From Natronorubrum daqingense (lineage in GTDB: Archaea; Halobacteriota; Halobacteria; Halobacteriales; Natrialbaceae), in the NCBI RefSeq assembly GCF_001971705.1, contig NZ_CP019327.1, forward strand, positions 496,001 through 560,000: a stretch of 64,000 nt of DNA, written 5' to 3'. Position 1 is the first letter of the stretch. Each line of letters starts with the position of its first letter. The notes below the pieces were generated by a model. The model ran no database searches and was not told the origin of the DNA. It saw only the letters and a list, made by a program, of their open reading frames with translations. Positions 35,254 to 35,939 of the stretch are shown piece by piece. A program made the position numbers and the translations under genes.

Positions 35254-35340
35254 CTCGAGTACCCCCAACCGGGTGACGTGGCTCCTCAGACACACCGCAG
35301 ATCGGTCGGACGTGTCAGACGTTTATTTTGGCGCCACAAA

Positions 35341-35374
35341 AAATATAAATAGGTATGTTGTACCCGCACATACC
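35341..35374 (+). promoter_or_regulatory. hsp20 promoter: TATA box and inverted repeat at the start site
   Basis: ATATAAAT within 35341-35350 is a strong TATA box. GGTATGT (35352-35358) and ACATACC (35368-35374) form a perfect 7-bp inverted repeat with a 9-nt spacer between the TATA box and the predicted transcription start (about 35375). This is the usual place for a repressor site in archaea. Confidence 0.6.
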
Positions 35375-35376
35375 AA

Positions 35377-35445
35377 ATGACGTCAATGGCTTTCTCGGTC
35401 TTCGTTACACATTCACATCCTCGTTCCGTCGGTGATTACGTATGA
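35377..35445 (+). CDS. 22-residue leader ORF of hsp20
   Basis: The ATG at 35377 lies about 31 nt after the TATA box, so it could be the first codon of a leaderless transcript. The frame MTSMAFSVFVTHSHPRSVGD ends YV, and its TGA overlaps the hsp20 start (ATGA at 35442-35445). It has a His-rich, hydrophobic composition. The Shine-Dalgarno of hsp20 lies within its last codons, so ribosome traffic through it should affect hsp20 translation. No other function is suggested. Confidence 0.5.
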   Translation: MTSMAFSVFVTHSHPRSVGDYV

Positions 35446-35939
35446 CTCCAGGGTACCTTCGGGAGTCGATCGGTAACGCCCTCTATCGACAGGTCGGGCG
35501 GGCGAACGGGCAGGTCCAGAGCCATCGCTCGCTCCCCGTCGACATTCTCGAGAGCGAAACGACCTACCAGGTCGTCTTCGATGCACCGGATGCCGAACCC
35601 ACTGACATCGAGGTCAGGTATCTCGAGGGGACCGTCAAAATCCGAATCGAGCGCTTCCGGCAGTATCGCGACGGCTACGAGATGCGCTTTCCCGGCCGCG
35701 GAATGGAGTTGACCGGATCGGCCGAACTGCCAGCAGACGCCATCGTCGAACCCGACGCCGGCGAGGCGACGCTGACGGAAACCGGAACCCTGCGCATTAC
35801 GATCCCTAAGGGATCCCGCGAGGAGGAACCGACGGCAGAGAGATCAGCTGATTCGTCGGCCGAGACCGACTCCGTTTCTCACTCGTCGTCGACCGACTCG
35901 TCGACACCGGCCGGCGAACTCGCCGTCGACGAGCAGTAA
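35442..35939 (+). CDS. Hsp20/alpha-crystallin family chaperone
   Basis: A 165-residue small heat shock protein. Residues about 30-125 hold an alpha-crystallin-type sandwich: LPVDILESETTYQVVFDAPDA, VKIRIERFRQYRDGYEMRFP, ending with ETGTLRITIPK (the G-x-L motif near the end). The last 40 residues are a Ser/Glu tail. It prevents aggregation of unfolded proteins. GGTGAT (35431-35436) is a Shine-Dalgarno 5 nt before the ATG and lies inside the leader ORF. Confidence 0.8.
   Translation: MTPGYLRESIGNALYRQVGRANGQVQSHRSLPVDILESETTYQVVFDAPDAEPTDIEVRYLEGTVKIRIERFRQYRDGYEMRFPGRGMELTGSAELPADAIVEPDAGEATLTETGTLRITIPKGSREEEPTAERSADSSAETDSVSHSSSTDSSTPAGELAVDEQ

Follow-up and report, generated by a model that had tools for sequence, protein, structure and literature searches.

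A short open reading frame (ORF) lies directly in front of an Hsp20-family gene of Natronorubrum daqingense, and its stop codon overlaps the start codon of the heat-shock gene. Does this leader matter for its peptide, as regulatory DNA or RNA, or because it brings ribosomes to the chaperone gene? The locus was studied in its window, the whole 64-kb stretch of DNA that was analysed, and in Hsp20 upstream regions gathered from 104 genomes. The favoured reading, given a probability of about 0.8, is that this ORF works as a leaderless ribosome-delivery ORF which feeds Hsp20 by termination-reinitiation.

The hsp20 locus

The features of the locus are collected in Table 1. The hsp20 product belongs to its family by Pfam score (28.9 bits against a gathering cut-off of 20.8); the NCBIfam equivalogs Hsp14 and Hsp20 also match it, with scores under their cut-offs. 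A homologue was found in all 99 of the good-quality relatives searched (99/99). Heat inducibility of the gene in this genome is assumed from its family. The DUF7559 gene is on the same strand, upstream of the leader, and holds this position in 59 of the 63 loci that have a leader. Its small product contains a CPxC motif.

The leader ORF reads MTSMAFSVFVTHSHPRSVGDYV and closes with the TGA at 35443-35445. The Shine-Dalgarno (SD) sequence within it matches the genome's own 16S 3' end, GGCTGGATCACCTCC, and is complementary to it (GGATCACCTCC); GGTG at -11 to -8 is near-invariant over 26 genera. The two ORFs form a same-strand pair with a 4-nt overlap and an SD in the end of the upstream member, as in termination-reinitiation pairs. 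An earlier note on this DNA had listed the TATA box, an inverted repeat, the ATG-initiated ORF, ATGA and GGTGAT, and all were found in place. One explicit rule applied to the 64-kb window returned a single convincing instance of promoter, ORF and overlap together; with its retention in 26 genera, this puts the arrangement beyond chance as judged from sequence comparison. The leader was rejected as a general trait of Hsp20 genes, as none comparable was seen at the other Hsp20-family loci of the genome in a quick look that resolved some but not all starts.

Table 1. Features of the hsp20 locus in the window
Feature	Position	Strand	Evidence or remark
DUF7559 small protein gene, 52 aa	35095..35253	+	PF24440, E=1.2e-25
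Conserved upstream element GTCWGACGTTTATTTT	35314..35329	+	One exact site in the genome; nearly all matches in relatives at the same locus
TATA-like sequence AAAATATAAATA	35340-35351	+	Sequence present as listed
TATA box core AATATAAA	35342..35349	+	Centre 31 nt from the leader ATG
Promoter element 'TA' (WW) at -10	35361..35362	+	Position of TA relative to the TATA centre
Inverted repeat GGTATGT (35352-35358) / ACATACC (35368-35374), 9-nt spacer	35352..35374	.	Judged a chance palindrome
Predicted transcription start, ~35372 (+/-2 nt)	35372..35372	+	TATA and -10 positions, haloarchaeal promoter rules (PMC4983044)
Leader mini-ORF, 22 codons, from ATG 35377	35377..35445	+	Start, frame and overlap kept in 63 genomes
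Shine-Dalgarno GGTGAT inside the leader ORF	35431..35436	+	Complementary to the 16S 3' end
ATGA stop/start overlap, leader TGA on Hsp20 ATG 35442	35442..35445	+	4-nt overlap
Hsp20-family small heat-shock protein gene, 165 aa	35442..35939	+	PF00011

Conservation of start, frame and overlap

The same plan is found in 63 genomes from 26 genera of the family to which the window genome belongs: a TATA box, a TA element, an ATG or GTG, and an ORF that reaches the Hsp20 start. Leader starts in the relatives were anchored by TATA spacing. Two of the 63 loci (L027 and L050) were added by hand, and the promoter alignment contains 61 sequences. The leaders are 16 to 62 codons long. GTG replaces ATG in G010 and in two genomes of genus g25, at a similar distance from the TATA box.

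The leader stop overlaps the Hsp20 start by 4 nt (NTGA) in 54 of the 63 genomes, a figure partly predetermined by Hsp20 second codons starting with A. The overlap is 10 nt in five genomes, 14 nt in two and 1 nt in one; in one further genome the stop lies 6 nt upstream of the Hsp20 start (-6). Overlaps of 4 nt or 1 nt thus occur in 55/63. The exceptions are telling. A one-base loss in G001 and G007 leads to a new stop and so to the 14-nt overlap; in genus g28, G072 and G012, NTGA is gone and the leader stop is 6 nt further on.

Leader start and Hsp20 start are 47 to 185 nt apart, and this spacing leaves the same remainder modulo 3 in 60 of 63 genomes. Differences in leader length within genera are multiples of three in 11 of 12 cases (binomial P=4.7e-5, with cases that are not strictly independent). 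Among 1200 interior leader codons there is not one in-frame stop, against 6.2 expected from the other frames (pooled P=0.002; weaker when each genus is represented by a single genome, P=0.077). It should be noted that a close stop is not in itself proof of coupling, and it was dropped as a stand-alone argument: one shifted frame would stop at -6 in 43/63 loci because the SD sequence GGTGA itself contains TGA. It is therefore the choice of frame and the length rule that carry the argument.

The overlap could instead be a relic of an ancestral DUF7559-Hsp20 overlap, with an unused ORF in C-rich DNA that is readily open-framed. NTGA is present in many outgroups too, and the two other leader frames are also poor in interior stops (about 0.5% of codons). 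A relic would not, however, predict a fixed distance from TATA to start, nor a frame that meets NTGA through lengths of 47 to 185 nt, and this is the least probable of the explanations considered here. The earlier note had proposed a leaderless short ORF translationally coupled to hsp20, an idea that would have been undermined if relatives had failed to keep the leader frame and the overlap. The idea survived comparison across the 63 genomes and 26 genera, and the sequences argue strongly for it.

The leader peptide

Within Natronorubrum and genus g20, pN/pS of the leader is 0.98 (95% 0.78-1.26) against 0.28 for codons 2-60 of Hsp20 (from the first 60 codons) in the same genomes, although a ratio near one is also expected of non-coding DNA. 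Differences at codon positions 1/2/3 number 364/307/337 in the leader and 334/191/820 in Hsp20 codons 2-60. Amino-acid constraint was sought in each third of the leader and found in none. Since non-coding DNA gives a similar ratio, the frame evidence is needed beside pN/pS; taken together, frame retention and peptide drift say that translation to the right end matters and that the product does not.

A functional microprotein, or a stalling or regulatory peptide which senses heat or another signal, is accordingly hard to sustain and was rejected, with no third of the leader under amino-acid constraint. At the N-terminus some genera do resemble one another, with MSxxYC(Q/H) or a QVP block for example, and the leader diverges less over codons 2-9 than in its middle. 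However, pN/pS is near one throughout (0.33 against 0.32 in codons 2-9), and the codon positions change about equally. The leaders differ in length from 16 to 62 codons, the peptides appear unrelated between many genera, and there is no Pfam match. The conserved peptide sequence of a regulatory leader peptide was not found, pN/pS being 0.98, and the peptide explanation is unlikely.

Several genera share Tyr-Cys (TAC TGC/TGT) at codons 5-6, as seen in codons 2-9 of the leaders at L014, L015, L017, L019-L021, L023 and L033. Some genera have a GTCCCC block as well. The shared TAC TGC/TGT and GTCCCC are perhaps a signal at the nucleotide level.

The promoter and its surroundings

The TATA centre lies 29-34 nt from the leader start in the 61 aligned promoters (mode 32; 31 or 32 nt in 48/61), and TA is found exactly 15 nt 3' of the TATA centre in 61/61. 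The haloarchaeal promoter rule cited here from PMC4983044 places WW at -10. Taken with such rules, the TATA and -10 geometry predicts a transcription start about 5 nt 5' of the leader ATG. A 5' UTR of about 5 nt would be at the edge of the leaderless definition (0-5 nt).

Further upstream, almost all matches to GTCWGACGTTTATTTT in the relatives lie directly 5' of this Hsp20 gene, with essentially one site per genome. The element is located about 43-58 nt 5' of the predicted transcription start and begins ~30 nt ahead of the TATA centre. It is strongly conserved, with a palindromic GTCWGAC core, and is missing from some leader genera. It may be an activator site or else a second promoter. The idea that GTCWGACGTTTATTT marks a heat-shock regulon was also considered and rejected: the motif is essentially limited to the Hsp20 locus, and of its three weaker sites in the genome none recognisably adjoins a heat-shock gene.

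The earlier note combined translational coupling with repressor control, taking the inverted repeat as the repressor's target. On this view a repressor would occupy the DNA between the TATA box and the start and silence transcription, like Phr or HSR1, both of which control archaeal hsp20 genes and bind near the start (PMC9133787). The repeat is suitably positioned and its 7-nt arms are perfect. Among the 61 promoters examined, the window alone reaches arms of 7 nt. However, the genome contains a single copy of the repeat, which is broken by one changed base in the closest relative (G003), and is absent from the other relatives. Arms of at least 7 nt arose in 46 of 3000 shuffles of its 40-nt segment, so that it is not convincingly beyond chance. 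The repeat also differs from the HSR1 motif CTAAC-N5-GTTAG, and a review reports no such repressor mechanism identified in halophiles (PMC9133787). According to the same review, BRE and TATA box were sufficient for the heat response of haloarchaeal hsp5; by analogy, this precedent would fit a promoter which has no operator. A conserved operator overlapping the start region, as in Phr- or HSR1-type control, was not found. The operator was rejected, its likelihood being very slim, and the repressor half of the proposal is not supported: the repeat is confined to this species and does not exceed what chance would give.

RNA structure

Bacterial small heat-shock genes often have RNA thermometers. 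The region could likewise be a thermometer or structured 5' leader in which the ORF is incidental, and predicted folds show moderate pairing of the SD. The folds nevertheless argue against it. Predicted folding energy is weaker than that of shuffled sequences (mean z +0.93), pairing of the SD is not above that seen with the leader interior shuffled (P=0.42), pairing partners vary between genera, and there is no Rfam match. An untranslated leader would also have no reason to change length in multiples of three. Stable structure sequestering the SD beyond expectation was not found in these folds; a thermometer or structured leader was rejected as highly unlikely.

Origin of the leader

Most genomes outside the leader clade have no leader, including those of g6 and g9, genera of the same family. 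In most of these outgroups the DUF7559 stop and the Hsp20 start either overlap, often as ATGA, or are separated by no more than about 12 nt. All leader genera of family f1 fall together in EF-2 trees (support 100/98), and the loss in genus g5 is nested within this clade, which suggests a single origin. In the simplest history, DUF7559 and Hsp20 were apparently an ancestral coupled pair, and a promoter and mini-ORF were inserted between them; the overlap was retained and the partner exchanged.

DUF7559 is found directly 5' of Hsp20 across the order (L064-L065, L067, L069-L078, L080-L081, L083-L087, L089-L095, L097-L098, L100-L101), and stop and start in these loci usually overlap or nearly touch. 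From this adjacency the two proteins may work together.

Four genomes of genus g5 (L030, L038, L041, L042) have lost the leader ORF and retain the promoter and the SD-bearing 5' region; the leader is thus dispensable there. Family f7 (L079, L088, L096) has no leader ORF. DUF7559 ends 40-75 nt 5' of the Hsp20 ATG in two of these loci and was undetected by motif scan in L079. Hsp20 itself may be leaderless in f7, another solution to the same problem. Outside family f1, the leader arrangement is seen, together with a portion of the upstream motif, in L082, from a fragmentary genome (G087, 59% complete). This leader-like ORF may reflect transfer or mis-binning.

Probable ribosome delivery to Hsp20

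On the favoured reading, ribosome delivery by a leaderless ORF, the promoter inserted between DUF7559 and hsp20 would give an mRNA that starts about 5 nt 5' of the mini-ORF ATG. Ribosomes would initiate at this ATG by the leaderless route and read the 22 codons. They would traverse the internal SD, terminate at the leader TGA, which overlaps the start of Hsp20, and begin again at the Hsp20 ATG. The leader peptide would be a by-product. We infer the transcription start, the translation of the leader and the dependence of Hsp20 on it from sequence.

The Hsp20 start is GTG in 21 of 26 genera (one genome per genus). GTG is a poor start in haloarchaeal mRNAs with short UTRs (PMC4574771), and GTG starts at Hsp20 would also fit a start fed by reinitiation. 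Nine of nine overlapping pairs tested in Haloferax volcanii are strictly coupled, most of them with 4-nt or 1-nt overlaps; an internal SD in this organism does not support de novo initiation, though it functions in reinitiation (PMC6728339). Coupling in H. volcanii is abolished by a gap of 22-23 nt; in E. coli, the upstream gene need contribute no more than its final 15 nt (PMC10666635).

A further reading is more speculative, and is offered as possible rather than probable. On this view the clade set a new promoter inside an overlapping gene pair. A plain 5' UTR would not have served Hsp20, since an SD does not bring about de novo initiation by haloarchaeal ribosomes; a leaderless nonsense mini-ORF would have evolved instead as a replaceable ribosome loader, under selection for its frame and ends only. 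If true, chaperone synthesis would depend on leaderless initiation, a pathway that heat or other stress may favour.

Relation to known systems

Parts of this design are already known: leaderless mRNAs, H. volcanii uORFs, termination-reinitiation, the ribosome-delivery idea and engineered nonsense-ORF boosters. The overlapping gene pairs of H. volcanii (Huber et al. 2019, 2023; PMC6728339, PMC10666635) are the closest in form. They are haloarchaeal, share the NTGA overlap and an SD placed within the last part of the upstream ORF, and use an SD that does not start translation de novo; a short upstream 3' end is enough (E. coli). Those pairs, however, encode two genuine proteins, whereas the Hsp20 leader is a 16-62 codon ORF which has its own promoter and no amino-acid constraint.

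The uORFs of H. volcanii in Table 2 of PMC4983044 are also haloarchaeal, encode 15-31 aa and stand ahead of normal genes. As presented there, they lie inside 5' UTRs of 150-250 nt in one species, with no analysis of overlap or evolution, and none precedes Hsp20. The Hsp20 leader, unlike these, is predicted to start its transcript and is conserved in 26 genera. Another haloarchaeal heat-shock mRNA, that of Natrinema hsp70, has a 5' UTR of just 4 nt (PMC4574771) against the 5 predicted here; in Natrinema this short 5' UTR precedes the chaperone gene itself, whereas at the Hsp20 locus it would precede the mini-ORF.

Natural short ORFs whose sole role is to deliver ribosomes to a downstream gene have been proposed in a review (PMC12548453). 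To this proposal the Hsp20 leader adds comparative evidence, with the frame kept and the peptide not. Boosters engineered in E. coli (PMC13255528) are short nonsense ORFs with an internal ribosome binding site near the stop, and they raise translation of their target. They are engineered and bacterial; the Hsp20 leader is natural, archaeal and predicted to be leaderless. No description of a conserved natural archaeal case was found in the literature searched, a scope which lay mostly outside subscription journals.

With the Hsp20 leader, the proposal that certain short ORFs serve only to deliver ribosomes can be tested on a natural and conserved case. It makes a sharp prediction: a change of peptide would have no effect, and a change of frame would cost the cell the chaperone. 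It also suggests a route by which a translationally coupled gene gains its own promoter where an SD alone cannot start translation. Annotation can easily miss such ORFs, and the design could therefore be commoner than is known.
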